Below are positions 24,578 through 58,945 of a DNA stretch of 64,000 nt, in pieces. The stretch is from contig NZ_MDGT01000002.1 in assembly GCF_001870515.1 (NCBI RefSeq), forward strand, positions 186,066 through 250,065. The letters run 5' to 3'. The notes beneath the pieces were generated by a model. That model was not told the DNA's origin. It saw only the letters and a list, made by a program, of their open reading frames with translations, and did not search any database. Made by a program: the position numbers and the translations under genes. This DNA comes from Idiomarina sp. MD25a (GTDB taxonomy: Bacteria > Pseudomonadota > Gammaproteobacteria > Enterobacterales > Alteromonadaceae). Numbering within the stretch: the stretch's first letter is position 1; every line of letters begins with the position of its first letter.

Positions 24578-24937
24578 GGGGCTGATCTGGATTCGACGGG
24601 ATACACGAAACCCAAGGTGCATGCCGAGGTGAGGCTGGCCTCGTAAAAAGCCTCAACGTTATAGTTGCAAACGACGACAACTACGCTCTAGCGGCTTAAT
24701 AACCCGCTAAGCCCGTCCCCCAGCGCTTTGTCTACGAGACTGGATCAGGATGGCTCGACCTAAGGTAGACTCGCGTGGATGCTTTGTCCGGAGCTGAAGC
24801 GTTAAACTTAATCGGACTCGCCAGTAGTTGAAGCCTGTCAGTCGGCGTCATGCTGGTTAATAAAAAGACTGAATAAGCATGTAGGACCGAGGATGTAGGT
24901 ATTGCGGACGCGGGTTCAACTCCCGCCAGCTCCACCA
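24578..24937 (+). ncRNA. ssrA: tmRNA
   Basis: Transfer-messenger RNA of about 360 bases for trans-translation. The 5' end GGGGCTGATCTGGATTCGACG and the 3' end with GGTTCAACTCCCGCCAGCTCCACCA form the tRNA-like part. The resume codon GCA is at 24667 and the tag reads ANDDNYALAA with stop TAA at 24697-24699. The 3' end is the attachment site of an integrated element: its last 23 bases and six more are repeated exactly at 29537-29565. The coding function is preserved, but the original terminator now lies 4.6 kb downstream. Confidence 0.97.
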
Positions 24938-31349: not shown

Positions 31350-33158
31350 ATGAAAATCATTGAAAAAGTTGAAGTAAGCTACTTTCGTTCAGTTTATTCC
31401 TTATCTTTGACTAAGTGTGAAGATGTAAATATTCTGATTGGTCAGAACGATGCAGGGAAATCGAATATTCTCAAGGCGCTTAATCTTTTTTTTAATAATG
31501 AAACTGAGTTAACTTCGCCAATAGAATTTATAGAAGATCTTTCTCGATCGCGCTCAGAGGAAGCAAGAGCTGCAAAGGGAAAGATGACAATTTGGATTAA
31601 AGTTACGTTCAACAATTATGAAAACTGGACATCGCTTCCGGAGACTTTTGTAGTTAAGCGCACATGGACTAGATACTCAGACCAGCCAGAAACAACTACT
31701 GTTGGAAATAAAAATATTCCGAACACGACTCTCGGGCGTTTTCTTTCAAAAATAGCATTTCATTATGTTCCCGCTGTCCGGGGAAGAGATATCTTCGCGC
31801 ATTATCTTACTTTGCTTCACGATGCTCTAATTGATGACGAGAAAGCCGGTATATCAGCTGCTTCAGCTGGCTTAGTAAAGCGGATCAATGAGAGTACTAG
31901 TGAAATGGCTCAAGATATAGAGGCACGATTGGGCTTTGAAAGCTCAATAGGAATGCCTAGAGACTTAAGACACCTGTTTACGGCATTAGATTTTACAACT
32001 AAATTTTCTCATCATGATGTTCCTTTAAAAAAACGAGGCGATGGAATTCAGGCTCGGCATATCCCATTTATTCTTAGCTTTGTTGCATCTCAATCTAAAA
32101 AGAATCATATTTGGGGGTACGAGGAGCCAGAAAATTCTTTGGAATTGGGCAGGGCATTTGACCTAGCAAATCAATTCCAGTCGGACTTCGCTAATAATAA
32201 TCAAATCTTTCTTACCTCCCATTCTCCAGCTTTTTATTCTCTGAATCAAGATAATGTTAAAAAATGGTTGGTGCGAAGCTGTGACGGCCATGGTTTCGAG
32301 GGTAAAGCAACTGTCGCGAAGCCATTAGATTCGGTAACTGACTTTGATAGATCAGTTGGCATTGCTGCTCTAATTTCTGATAGAGCTAAAGATTTACATG
32401 AAAAAATTGAGAAATTACACGAATCCGCAAATGAACTAAAGGATCGTTTGCAGGATGCTGAAATGCCACAGGTAATAGTGGAAGGTCCAACAGACGTTAC
32501 TATTCTAAAACATGCGTCAAGGCTTCTATATCCTGAGCAGGATCCTATTTGTGAGTTTATTTCAGCTGGAAATGCAAACAAAGTAGTATCATTCGTGCTT
32601 GGCTTAGCTGATCTCGGTAGAAAGTATCCTTTCCCAATTATGGGCTTGTTAGACGATGACTATGAAGGAAGAAGTCAGTTTCTACCCAAAAAGCAAGGAG
32701 CTTATAAGCTTTTTGATGGCACTAGGGTAAGAGTTATAAATCGTGATAGAGGAATCTACTTGGGCTTTCTGCCTAGACCCAGTTGGATTGAAGATGCGGA
32801 AGGTATACTCAAGGTTGAAGGTAATGAGTTAGATTTACCTGTAACTATAGAGTCTTTAGTATCGAAAGAGTTTATGGCTCAAGCAGTTGATGCGAATGCA
32901 ATTGGCTTTTGCGACCAAATGACTACTGCGAAAAATGCAAACTTAAAAACAACTATCAACTTATCAAATGAATTAGGTCAATATCTCGAAAATGATAGTC
33001 GTTATTTGGTCCAGAAAATTGATGAACAAAGCAAAACGGAGTTCTCTGAATACTTTCAAGCGAATGCTAGATTGGAAAGTTGTGAAGCCTTTCGACCAAT
33101 ATTCGAATGGATTAAAAGTATTATTGATGTTTTTCAAGAAAATCAAGAGGAGCAATGA
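31350..33158 (+). CDS. OLD-family ATP-dependent endonuclease (ABC ATPase plus TOPRIM)
   Basis: A 602-residue protein. The ATPase part has a Walker A GQNDAGKSN (Lys37), a YEEPENSLE Walker B (Glu258-259) and the switch His291 in TSHSPAF. The C-terminal TOPRIM nuclease has Glu378 in IVEGPTD and an acidic DDD triplet (435-437) in GLLDDDYEG. This is the architecture of overcoming-lysogenization-defect nucleases. No UvrD-like helicase follows, so it is a class 1-like stand-alone gene rather than a Gabija pair. A phage-defence role is inferred from family and location. A terminator follows at 33219. Confidence 0.87.
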   Translation: MKIIEKVEVSYFRSVYSLSLTKCEDVNILIGQNDAGKSNILKALNLFFNNETELTSPIEFIEDLSRSRSEEARAAKGKMTIWIKVTFNNYENWTSLPETFVVKRTWTRYSDQPETTTVGNKNIPNTTLGRFLSKIAFHYVPAVRGRDIFAHYLTLLHDALIDDEKAGISAASAGLVKRINESTSEMAQDIEARLGFESSIGMPRDLRHLFTALDFTTKFSHHDVPLKKRGDGIQARHIPFILSFVASQSKKNHIWGYEEPENSLELGRAFDLANQFQSDFANNNQIFLTSHSPAFYSLNQDNVKKWLVRSCDGHGFEGKATVAKPLDSVTDFDRSVGIAALISDRAKDLHEKIEKLHESANELKDRLQDAEMPQVIVEGPTDVTILKHASRLLYPEQDPICEFISAGNANKVVSFVLGLADLGRKYPFPIMGLLDDDYEGRSQFLPKKQGAYKLFDGTRVRVINRDRGIYLGFLPRPSWIEDAEGILKVEGNELDLPVTIESLVSKEFMAQAVDANAIGFCDQMTTAKNANLKTTINLSNELGQYLENDSRYLVQKIDEQSKTEFSEYFQANARLESCEAFRPIFEWIKSIIDVFQENQEEQ

Positions 33159-49401: not shown

Positions 49402-49435
49402 TAGATATTTTGCCCTACTAGTTAAATAAGCGGTA

Positions 49436-49482
49436 AATAAGAATGATTATTCTTTGTATTGTATTTGATAATCATTCTTATT
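49436..49482 (-). promoter_or_regulatory. Double Fur box (perfect 15-bp inverted repeat)
   Basis: AATAAGAATGATTAT (49436-49450) and its exact reverse complement (49468-49482) are separated by 17 bases. Each arm contains the GATAATCATT-type core of Fur sites; the right one matches 13 of 19 consensus positions. Confidence 0.8.
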
Positions 49483-49515
49483 TTCAATGGGCAAAGTAAA
49501 ATATTTAGTTATTAA

Positions 49516-56344: not shown

Positions 56345-57046
56345 ATGGCAAATACAATTCGTCTGTACCAAGCCGTTATGTTACTCGCGTTGAGTGAAGA
56401 GCGCGGCACCATGAACGGTGCCTATGTAGAATATGCAACCGCAGCCGCGCTTTTGTCAGAGCTTTTGATGCATGAGCGTATTGCGATTGAAGCGGATAAT
56501 AAAAATAAAGTGTCGGTTGTGGATGAAGCCAGTACCGATGATGCGTTATTGGACGAAGCGTTGGGTCAAATAAAGTCTGCTAAGCGACAACGTAAGCTAC
56601 AGGACTGGGTACAAAAGCTAGGCCAACTTAAAGATTTAAAACACAAAGTTGCCCAGAGTTTGGCGGACGCTCATATCGTCGCAGCAGAAAAGGAAAAGGT
56701 TTTATGGCTGTTTGAGCGACGCGTTTATCCCGAGCTTAATCCAGAACCCGAACAGCAAATACGTGAAGGCATGCGCAGTGCTGTGATGAGTGATGATGAT
56801 GCGATTGAACCGCGTGTGGCGATTTTAGTCGCTTTAGCCAATAGCGCTAAGCTGTTGCCGCAAGTGTTCACTAAGCAAGAACTGAAACAGCGCAAAAAGC
56901 GCATTGAGCAGCTAGAAAAGGGTGAAATGGTGTCTACCGCGGCAAAACAAGCGGTGGCCGCTATTGAGGCTGCGGTCATGGTGGCTGCTATTATGCCAGC
57001 CATCACCGCCGCGAGCACCGCTTCGTGTTCATCAACCTCGTGCTAA
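56345..57046 (+). CDS. GPP34/GOLPH3-family protein
   Basis: A 233-residue protein of mainly helical content. The opening LYQAVMLLALSEERGTMNG and YATAAALLSELLMHERIAIE correspond to the start of the GPP34 domain, known from yeast Vps74 and human GOLPH3, which bind PI4P; bacterial versions are functionally unassigned. The C-terminus has a hydrophobic Ala-rich helix (AAVMVAAIMPAITAAS) and ends in a Cys/Ser tail. Directly followed by a decayed chemoreceptor on the other strand. Confidence 0.78.
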   Translation: MANTIRLYQAVMLLALSEERGTMNGAYVEYATAAALLSELLMHERIAIEADNKNKVSVVDEASTDDALLDEALGQIKSAKRQRKLQDWVQKLGQLKDLKHKVAQSLADAHIVAAEKEKVLWLFERRVYPELNPEPEQQIREGMRSAVMSDDDAIEPRVAILVALANSAKLLPQVFTKQELKQRKKRIEQLEKGEMVSTAAKQAVAAIEAAVMVAAIMPAITAASTASCSSTSC

Positions 57047-57550
57047 GAGGTTGGTTTGGGCGGCAATGCCTTGGATACTGTCGACTAACTCAGTGACTTT
57101 CGTTGATTGAGTGTTAAGTTCAGCGATGTGGTGACTGGTTTGCTCAATTTTTTGTGCTAACACGCGCATAGCATCAATGGTTTCTCGAATCACAGCCATG
57201 CCTTGTTCTCGTTTAACCTGATCGGTAATTACCGAGGCGAATTTAACCACCTTGTAGAGTTGACCGGCTTCATTATGAACAGGGTTGTAGGTTGCCTCTA
57301 ACCAAACGGGATTACCAAAGCTATCAATACGCTGGAAACGTCCAGAGAAAAACTCACCAGCCGCTAGCTTTTACCAGAAACGACTGTAACCCTTAGATTG
57401 AACTTCTTCTTCACTGCAAAAGACACGGTGGTGCTAATCAACGATATCGTCTAGCTGATAATTCAAAGCATCAAGAAAGTTTTTATTAGCGTTTTAGACT
57501 CCTTGTTTTAAGTATGCGTGGGTATCTACAATAAATTGAAAATAATCGTT
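57032..57550 (-). pseudogene. Degenerate PAS-type methyl-accepting chemotaxis protein
   Basis: One reading frame on the minus strand translates to a PAS domain (FQRIDSFGNPVWLEATYNPV, then YKVVKFASVITDQVK) followed by the start of an MCP helix (ELVDSIQGIAAQTNLLA). Three stops interrupt it at 57494-57496, 57434-57436 and 57371-57373, and it ends just before the signalling tip. It resembles the second PAS domain and linker of the intact receptor at 7084. Both the start and the C-terminal half are gone. Confidence 0.8.
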
Positions 57551-57736: not shown

Positions 57737-57946
57737 ATGTCTAATACAGTAAACGGCACAGTTAAATGGTTTAACGAAGCAAAAGGTTTTGGTTTCATCG
57801 AGCAGCAAGGCGGCGCTGACGTATTTGCTCATTTCAGTGCAATCACTGGCGATGGCTTCAAAACGCTTAACGAAGGTCAACGTGTATCGTTCGCGATCAC
57901 TCAAGGCCCTAAAGGTCCTCAAGCAGAAAACATCGTTGTACTGTAA
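57737..57946 (+). CDS. Cold-shock protein (CspA family)
   Basis: A 69-residue OB-fold nucleic-acid-binding protein. RNP1 is KGFGFIEQ and RNP2 is DVFAHFSAI, both complete; the opening [15 protein letters not shown] is canonical. It binds single-stranded RNA and DNA and melts mRNA structure. An upstream non-coding stretch of about 180 bases fits the long leader of csp mRNAs. A strong terminator follows at 57973. Which Csp paralogue it is cannot be decided. Confidence 0.94.
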
Positions 57947-57972: not shown

Positions 57973-58000
57973 AAAAGGGAGCTTTCGAGCTCCTTTTTTT
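57973..58000 (+). terminator. Terminator of the cold-shock gene
   Basis: GGAGCT pairs with AGCTCC around TTCG, followed by seven T. Confidence 0.9.
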
Positions 58001-58016
58001 GTGCCTAAAATAAATA

Positions 58017-58045
58017 TTGCAAATAACAATCATTTTCATTAATAT
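58017..58045 (+). promoter_or_regulatory. Promoter with overlapping Fur-like box
   Basis: -35 TTGCAA (58017-58022) and -10 TAATAT (58040-58045) are 17 bases apart. A Fur-like 19-mer (58019-58037), matching 14 of 19 consensus positions, fills the spacer. Iron repression is the natural reading. Confidence 0.6.
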
Positions 58046-58050
58046 GTAGT

Positions 58051-58115
58051 CGTTGGCCTAAACTCTCTCCCTGGCTAATGTTCTCCCCAGCCAAGTGCTG
58101 GGGAATTTTTCTCTT
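58051..58115 (+). ncRNA. Candidate Fur-regulated small RNA (or leader of the SDR gene)
   Basis: A transcript from the promoter at 58017-58045 would run about 60-65 bases and end at a perfect hairpin, CCCCAGC (58085-58091) with GCTGGGG (58097-58103), followed by AATTTTT. The region upstream of the hairpin is C/U-rich (ACTCTCTCCCTGG), as seen in sRNA seed regions. The loop region CCAGCCAAGTGCTGG recalls the RyhB terminator, but the RyhB core is absent. The alternative is an attenuated leader of the gene at 58187, 72 bases further on. Confidence 0.45.
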
Positions 58116-58186: not shown

Positions 58187-58945
58187 ATGAAAGCAGACGA
58201 GAAAGTTGCCGTTGTTACTGGAGGCGGGCGAGGCATCGGTCGTGGTATCACACTAAAGTTGTTAGACGCGGGATATAAAGTGCTTGTCGCTCAGCGAAAG
58301 GCGCTTGACCATGAACTCGCGCATAATTTTAATGTGACTTGGCTAGAAGCGGATTTATCCGATTTAGGCTCGACTGAAACGATAGCAGAGGCTGCGCAGG
58401 ACTATTTTGGCGGTGCCAATCTTTTAGTTAATAACGCAGGTATGATGTTTGAGCAAAGCCTTGAGCATATGACTGAAGCCGAGTGGGAGCGTATGGCAAT
58501 TATAAACGTACGCGCACCTGTTTTTTTAACCAAATCATTATTGCCACAGTTAAAAGCTAAGAGAAATGCCAGCGTTGTTAATATTGGCTCTATCGAGGGG
58601 GTGGCAGCAAACCCAGAACATATCGCTTATTCTACAACAAAAGCAGGTGTGCATGGCATGACACGAGCCATGGCAGTGGATTTAGGCCAGTATCGAGTGC
58701 GTTGTAATGCAGTCGCTCCTGGTTGGATAGATACGGAGCTGAGTGAAAAGTATATAGCCTCACAAACAAATCCGACGAAAGCACGTTCAAAGTTGTTGGC
58801 GCAACATCCTTTAGGAAGAACCGGTAAGCCCGAGGATATCGGTAATGCAGTGGCGTTTCTTGCGAGTGAGCAAGCTGAGTTTATTACAGGTCAGGTGCTG
58901 GTTGTGGATGGAGGGCGAACGGCAAAACTACCTTTGCCGTTTTAG
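58187..58945 (+). CDS. Short-chain dehydrogenase/reductase
   Basis: A 252-residue classical SDR. The cofactor loop is VVTGGGRGIGRG (residues about 9-20), NNAG follows near residue 85, and the catalytic Ser, Tyr and Lys are in NIGSIEG and YSTTKAG. The C-terminal VDGG motif is present. Similar to 3-oxoacyl reductases; the substrate is unknown. Upstream sits a Fur-like promoter with a possible terminator, so expression may depend on iron if readthrough occurs. GGGGCTC near the start is a weak ribosome site. Confidence 0.88.
   Translation: MKADEKVAVVTGGGRGIGRGITLKLLDAGYKVLVAQRKALDHELAHNFNVTWLEADLSDLGSTETIAEAAQDYFGGANLLVNNAGMMFEQSLEHMTEAEWERMAIINVRAPVFLTKSLLPQLKAKRNASVVNIGSIEGVAANPEHIAYSTTKAGVHGMTRAMAVDLGQYRVRCNAVAPGWIDTELSEKYIASQTNPTKARSKLLAQHPLGRTGKPEDIGNAVAFLASEQAEFITGQVLVVDGGRTAKLPLPF

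Follow-up and report, generated by a model that had tools for sequence, protein, structure and literature searches.

A putative Fur-linked small RNA in Idiomarina with a loop complementary to TonB-dependent receptor leaders

Does the gap between a cold-shock gene (csp) and a short-chain dehydrogenase/reductase (SDR) gene in Idiomarina sp. MD25a hold a regulatory RNA of its own and, if so, which mRNAs would it act on? The question concerns positions 58017-58112 (+ strand) of a 64,000-nt stretch of contig NZ_MDGT01000002.1, hereafter the window. A preliminary description, made from the letters of the window alone, had proposed a separate small RNA (sRNA) gene here, probably controlled by Fur, and our comparison of the window genome (G000) with the other members of a set of 19 Idiomarina genomes supports that proposal on computational evidence. 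The site stands above chance because three other genomes keep the entire unit and because its loop core is conserved elsewhere as well. We regard it as very probably a real sRNA gene. Its product is probably a Fur-controlled, trans-acting RNA that would repress other TonB-dependent receptors under iron limitation, resembling RusT rather than RyhB.

The csp-linked unit

The full csp-linked unit is found in four of the 19 genomes, namely G000, G013 (an Idiomarinaceae metagenome-assembled genome), G018 (I. baltica OS145) and G009 (I. fontislapidosi CECT 5859). Identity to the window unit in the three others is 98, 94 and 90% over 251, 196 and 172 query bases, and a fifth genome, G003, matches over 31 bases of the box region only. 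The end of csp, the csp terminator, the Fur-like box, the RNA hairpin and the sRNA terminator are all kept in the four-genome alignment; variation falls on the bases between the -10 element and the start and, in G018 and G009, also on a stretch some way past the T run. Conservation in relatives was among the checks that the preliminary description had called for.

Placed between csp and the SDR gene and reading in their direction, the unit could be a cis element without trans function: a second csp terminator, or a leader or attenuator for the SDR gene. The neighbouring gene speaks against this: the SDR gene is reduced to a 3' remnant in G018 and is absent in G009, yet the RNA is retained in both. 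With the RNA kept beside no intact SDR gene and the sequence after its terminator diverging, we reject the SDR leader, and what is conserved is not merely a longer SDR leader, the outcome that the preliminary description had set against its own proposal. In addition, a complete csp terminator, identical in all four genomes by alignment (the terminator scan gives this hairpin on the - strand only), precedes a promoter-like region that belongs to the unit itself, and the seed of the unit recurs at unrelated loci. We therefore consider a purely cis-acting element very improbable.

The RNA itself folds into two hairpins. As a 63-nt molecule it reaches -24.8 kcal/mol (z = -5.2), a stability equalled by none of 200 shuffled sequences. 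At its 3' end the perfect 7-bp hairpin followed by AATTTTT that had been described earlier is present (CCCCAGC-CAAGT-GCTGGGG) and extends to eight pairs with an outer U-A. This terminator has the most pairs among six terminator-like sites in a 3.5-kb region, where shuffled versions of the region average 3.8 such sites; its loop is altered in G009 and its stem is intact. The C/U-rich stretch that the preliminary description took for a single-stranded region is real, but most of it is the loop of a 5' hairpin that had been overlooked. At other loci the pairs of this stem differ and the pairing is maintained. Within the loop and its closing bases lies the seed core, and CTCCCTGG occurs once on the + strand of the window, at this core; the complementary CCAGGGAG was not found on that strand of the window.

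Upstream, the reported -35/-10 pair with its 17-base spacing is present, each hexamer agreeing with the consensus at four of six positions; a promoter scan with a threshold of 9/12 does not list it. The -10 element reads TAACAT in G013 and G018 and TAGTGT in G009. We also confirm the 14/19 Fur-like box in the spacer, where counts are bases matching the 19-base Fur consensus. Five places in the window (eight hits over both strands) score at least 14/19, and hits of 14 are expected at a mean of 1.2 per window in five Markov simulations. Two further places with Fur-like matches, of up to 15/19, are at 49433-49485 and 32988-33006. The features of the locus are collected in Table 1.

Table 1. Features of the sRNA locus and its neighbours, in window positions
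Feature	Position	Strand	Basis
csp, coding for a 69-aa cold-shock protein, upstream of the sRNA	57737..57946	+	Open reading frame; Pfam CSD 5.3e-29
csp intrinsic terminator, splitting csp from the sRNA gene	57978..58000	+	Hairpin GGAGCT-TTCG-AGCTCC then T7, read in the sequence
-35 element TTGCAA	58017..58022	+	Sequence; kept in 4/4 genomes
Fur-like box GCAAATAACAATCATTTTC	58019..58037	+	14/19 to Fur consensus, inside the -35/-10 spacer
-10 element TAATAT (weak)	58040..58045	+	Sequence and alignment; position inferred from spacing
Putative small RNA, ~60 nt	58051..58112	+	Block conserved in four genomes; start inferred, uncertain by ~3 bases
5' hairpin, loop UAAACUCUCUCCCU at 58059-58072	58051..58080	+	Stem 58051-58058 / 58073-58080, from the fold
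Seed core CUCCCUGG, complementary to CCAGGGAG in TonB-receptor leaders	58067..58074	+	Conserved at other loci; target match
AUGUUCU, possible second pairing block for AGAACAU of the target leader	58078..58084	+	Predicted duplex
sRNA intrinsic terminator (hairpin plus T run)	58084..58110	+	Terminator scan; stem kept in 4/4 genomes
SDR gene (252 aa), downstream and outside the sRNA unit	58187..58945	+	Open reading frame; Pfam adh_short_C2 5.5e-57

On the - strand at 57032-57520, the window also holds the remnant of a PAS/chemotaxis-type gene, of which a 72-aa open reading frame (ORF) is left with a weak MCP signal domain (27.3 bits, cut-off 34.6); the counterpart beside the element in G009 (L034:2230-3093) is an open gene with PAS domains.

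The same element at receptor 3' ends and other loci

We searched for further copies with a covariance model of the four csp-linked copies and with a seed-plus-T-run pattern (CTCTCCCTGG, 15-45 nt, TTTTT). The pattern is found in 13 of the 19 Idiomarina genomes and its reversed control in none. Twelve of these 13 genomes carry the element; the match in the remaining one, G012, sits at the polA locus and was set aside rather than counted as the same element. The additional copies reveal a second carrier: a C/U hairpin with the core CUCCCUGG and a terminator, placed directly 3' of the stop codon of a TonB-dependent receptor gene. This host receptor has β-barrel and Plug domains (Pfam), its best solved relative is FecA, and its best NCBIfam model is a TonB-dependent siderophore receptor (165 bits, under the cut-off of 223.5).

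We examined the host receptor 3' ends of all 16 genomes that match at E up to 1e-40. The element is present in twelve of them, seven times with the exact 10-mer and five times as a variant (CCCUCCCUGG in three genomes, CCCUCUCUGG in G015 and UUUUCCCUGG in G001). The four genomes that lack it are G000, G013, G018 and G009, exactly the carriers of the csp-linked unit. Three genomes, G010, G015 and G016, have the receptor 3' element plus a stand-alone copy elsewhere. In G010 this copy faces a short ORF that follows a PepSY_TM gene, and in G016 it lies near a succinyl-CoA ligase gene; the G015 copy reads like that of G016. Altogether there are seven stand-alone copies at three kinds of loci, the copies within each kind being orthologues.

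The 5' hairpin is maintained across most of this set. The stems were poorly lined up in MAFFT and R1-fitted alignments of the copies, which were not used for pair counts; instead each of the 19 copies was folded singly. In 17 of the 19 predicted folds the C/U stretch lies in a hairpin loop whose closing pairs join the GG of the core to a CC. Past this invariant CC/GG both strands of the stem vary with the lineage and still pair: the next pair is G-C, U-A or A-U, and the following one, where the stem extends that far, is G-U, A-U or U-A. These changes are read from minimum-energy folds, which are biased towards standard pairs.

Fur-like boxes accompany both carriers. Each of the seven stand-alone copies has one of 13-14/19 in the 120-130 bases before its seed; for comparison, 13/19 is reached in 13 of 533 stretches of 120 bases from the 64-kb sequence. 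The TTGCAA -35 element also precedes the stand-alone copies in G015 and G016, whose promoters begin like that of the window (TTGCAAATA). Similarly, 12 of the 16 host receptor genes, among them 11 of the 12 that bear the element, have a Fur-like match of at least 13/19 upstream, roughly 50 to 105 bases before the start (positions and assignments by inspection). None of 17 promoters examined in the predicted target family, described below, has such a match within 300 bases. A Fur box that overlaps the promoter is a mark of RyhB-type Fur-dependent sRNAs, and the window element carries one as a sequence match. Fur control of the sRNA gene is, in our assessment, likely.

Several other candidates were discarded. 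The G015 match C7 (L114) was dropped as not resembling a terminator, and six weak additional R1 matches within Idiomarina are not the element. Across the family, the R1 covariance model matches at E up to 1 in 105 of 295 genomes; the 15 loci inspected outside Idiomarina are mostly terminators or the polA-locus RNA (L065). The seed pattern matches in 85 of 395 genomes, and the matches outside Idiomarina and its sister genus g51 were mostly judged unrelated from the match strings alone. We accordingly claim no spread of the element beyond Idiomarina.

The sister genus carries an RNA of its own. In the family sample, CTCTCCCTGG and a T run occur in each of the 26 g51 genomes, and at the seven g51 loci opened, as in G012, this RNA lies downstream of polA (L199-L206, e.g. 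L200:1672-1753); at L200 the polA, EamA and GTPase genes are confirmed by Pfam. The region behind polA is the usual place of Spot 42. The g51 RNA shares CUCUCCCUGG with the window RNA, and the polA-linked RNA reaches the Rfam suhB/MmgR cut-off (RF00519, 41 bits) at two of the ten loci searched, with 44.1 and 41.0 bits. The suhB/MmgR family is alphaproteobacterial.

Predicted pairing with TonB-receptor leaders

With which mRNAs could such a loop pair? G000, G018 and G009 were scanned for the seed complement, as eight exact bases and near ATG only. In G018 one match, with CCAGGGAGA immediately before the ATG, falls in the leader of a different TonB receptor. This leader was selected by the scan, and the independent test is provided by its relatives. 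The receptor family, which has Plug and β-barrel domains and a plug resembling BtuB and CirA, occurs in 17 of the 19 genomes (E up to 1e-40), and 30 starts were fetched of 32 matches. CCAGGGAG is found within 30 bases of the start in 24 of these 30 genes, 6-10 bases before the ATG, and every one of the 17 genomes has at least one such leader. It is found at none of 270 other ORF starts, though 42 of them have GGAG; these controls come from the window and other fetched loci and include some from other genera, some orthologues and perhaps some spurious ORFs. When the 16-base loop is considered alone, none of 48 window ORF starts pairs as well as the leader of the G000 receptor at G000:C3:589922. 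Joint folding of the window RNA with this leader gains 11.5 kcal/mol, more than with any of the 48 window ORF starts.

The distribution of the element agrees with this. Of the 17 genomes with the target family, 16 carry the element, G005 being the exception, and in G012 and G014, where the target family was not found, no element of this kind was found either. Hfq, on which the predicted repression would probably depend, is over its cut-off in all 19 genomes. We consider the receptor leaders quite likely to be the main targets.

Two further sites were met. In G000 a gene read from its translation as an RND-type (resistance-nodulation-division) metal efflux gene starts six bases after AGGGAGAG (L175, G000:C5:40652-40675) and may be an additional target. 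In G000, G018 and G009 a short ORF, about 45-53 aa long, has an identical CAGGGAGAGTGATTACAGGCATG at its start (L210, L217, L209).

The conserved leader motif might instead be a protein site, for example for CsrA, or an inherited strong ribosome-binding site, with CUCCCUGG serving as a generic anti-Shine-Dalgarno loop on other mRNAs. CAGGGA does match the CsrA consensus CARGGA, generic anti-Shine-Dalgarno loops exist in other sRNAs, and the sister genus has CUCUCCCUGG in its polA-locus RNA. The match nevertheless involves all eight core bases, including the CC upstream of the Shine-Dalgarno part, in leaders whose flanks differ, and the control starts, including the 42 with GGAG, are without it. 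In the window's clade there is additional complementarity as well: AGAACAU in the leader faces AUGUUCU in the RNA, with a gap of three bases to the core in each molecule and one G-U pair in G009. Leader shuffles giving an equally good extended match number, out of 500, 10 for G000, 16 for G013, 25 for G018 and 62 for G009. We find this alternative unlikely and favour pairing of the RNA with the receptor leaders.

The preliminary description had looked to iron-protein mRNAs as targets, and the RNA could be a Fur-controlled sRNA of the RyhB/PrrF kind that spares iron by repressing these mRNAs, its match to receptors being secondary. The Fur-like box fits such a role, no RyhB is over the cut-off in the 19 genomes, and a loop rich in C and U might find partners in many Shine-Dalgarno sequences. 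However, no classical iron-protein gene was recognised by eye among the starts met in narrow scans (G000 alone, and G000, G018 and G009 together; eight exact bases, ATG only), and it is in the leaders of TonB-receptor genes that the conserved complement lies. The evidence points to TonB-dependent receptor mRNAs, and a RyhB-like or PrrF-like role seems to us a rather unlikely alternative to receptor repression.

A number of observations weigh against regulation of the receptors by a Fur-controlled sRNA. The initial target scan yielded only a mild excess over its reversed control (28 places against 18 in the three genomes), two of the 28 being the sRNA gene itself on the opposite strand, and the complement scan of G000 alone listed 11 matches (nine sites) against four in the control. 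Six of the 30 target-family starts have no CCAGGGAG and carry CCGGGGAG, CACAGGGAA and similar sequences, and the target genes comprise orthologues and paralogues, so that the 24 of 30 are not independent. Outside the window's clade the extended match is no better than in shuffled leaders (up to 475 of 500 as good, in G003), except weakly in G004 (40 of 500); G015 is excluded from this test, as its core variant differs from the search string. We therefore discarded a cross-lineage coevolution of the extended pairing, which stands out in the window's clade and, weakly, in G004 only. Joint folding is likewise unimpressive elsewhere, with 22, 9, 9 and 6 of 48 controls as good in G017, G003, G011 and G002, and in full duplex energy one of the 270 controls is better. 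Target conservation could have another cause, since GGGAG by itself resembles a Shine-Dalgarno sequence and CAGGGA agrees with the CsrA consensus. Co-occurrence agrees with regulation, but the negatives are few. G005 has target genes and no element was found in it with the covariance model, the seed pattern or in 100 kb guessed from synteny. Among the copies, that of G001 has no hairpin when folded, and the hairpin of the intergenic G010 copy depends on the folded length. Finally, the promoter hexamers are weak (8/12), the -10 element of G009 is poor, and the Fur box by itself is weak evidence for Fur control, because five places in the window reach at least 14/19.

Relation to known RNAs and proposed role

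No Rfam family accounts for the element. A scan of the whole window lists only tmRNA (24578-24937, + strand, RF00023, 243 bits), and RyhB, PrrF, Spot 42 and all other families were rejected for the window element, with no match above cut-off. Below threshold, NsiR1 scores 24 bits at the element (cut-off 39) and STnc370 32 bits on the other strand (cut-off 54). The earlier statement that this is not RyhB holds throughout the genus sample: RF00057 (cut-off 55 bits) is over cut-off in none of the 19 genomes, with sub-threshold matches in 16 of them (best 27 bits), and is over cut-off in one of 14 genomes of a control set. The receptor 3' ends have no Rfam match above cut-off either.

Among characterized RNAs, the closest in logic is RusT of Caulobacter crescentus, described in PMC11005374 as an iron-starvation sRNA under NtrYX control, with a hairpin-loop seed, that represses several TonB-dependent receptor mRNAs with Hfq. 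Both RNAs have the seed in a conserved hairpin loop, while expression under iron scarcity and Hfq-linked repression of receptors are only predicted for Idiomarina. The two differ, by description, in their control (NtrYX for RusT, a Fur-like box for the Idiomarina element) and in that the Idiomarina element comes in two forms, a stand-alone gene and a receptor-mRNA 3' end. With RyhB and PrrF the element shares a Fur-like box, small size and an intrinsic terminator, but its predicted targets are receptors and not iron proteins, and PrrF has no match in the window. The CUCCC-type C/U-rich stretch before the terminator recalls suhB/MmgR and other sRNAs with anti-Shine-Dalgarno loops, though the RF00519 cut-off is reached by the polA-linked sister-genus RNA only; this family is matched neither by the window element nor by nine other loci (receptor 3' ends and stand-alone copies). 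As for Spot 42 (spf, of the polA-engB locus), the sister-genus RNA with CUCUCCCUGG is also found behind polA; in an Rfam search of ten loci at E up to 1 no match to Spot 42 appeared, and the window element is at another locus. In the twelve genomes where the receptor stop codon is followed at once by hairpin and terminator, the element may belong to the sRNAs derived from 3' untranslated regions, which arise from or within an mRNA 3' end and use its terminator.

We propose the following model. When iron is plentiful, Fur bound to the box in the promoter spacer would keep the sRNA gene off. When iron is scarce, the sRNA would be made, ending at its own terminator, and its loop core CUCCCUGG would pair with CCAGGGAG at the ribosome-binding site of TonB-receptor mRNAs and so prevent translation, probably with the help of Hfq. 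Most other Idiomarina would carry this hairpin and terminator as the short 3' end of the mRNA of a siderophore-type receptor gene that has a Fur-like box in its promoter. Because the element lies in the 3' end of the iron receptor's mRNA, making the iron receptor would also release, presumably by processing, a repressor of other receptors; in the window's clade that repressor would be delivered by a separate gene. The purpose may be to shift outer-membrane and TonB capacity to iron uptake.

A bolder form of this model, to which we give about even chances, is that one seed has been traded between the two carriers. The 3' tail of the iron receptor would repress competitors for TonB and membrane space, and in one clade, where the tail is missing, the seed would have re-emerged in, or moved to, a Fur-box gene beside csp. 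An iron-linked trans-acting sRNA on receptors is an already known kind; the exchange of carrier between a receptor mRNA 3' end and a stand-alone Fur-box gene would be new. Among titles and abstract openings of the open-licence PubMed Central literature we found no report of an Idiomarina small RNA or of a Fur sRNA from a receptor 3' untranslated region.

If the model is correct, Idiomarina, with no RyhB over cut-off, would have in this RNA a Fur-linked branch of regulation directed at TonB receptors rather than at iron proteins, and a concrete eight-base pairing site would be available for testing. The genus would also offer a natural series on the birth of an sRNA gene: the seed is found at receptor mRNA 3' ends, in stand-alone Fur-box genes at loci of three kinds and, in three genomes, in both forms. 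For the cell, such an RNA may be a means of exchanging one set of nutrient receptors for another.
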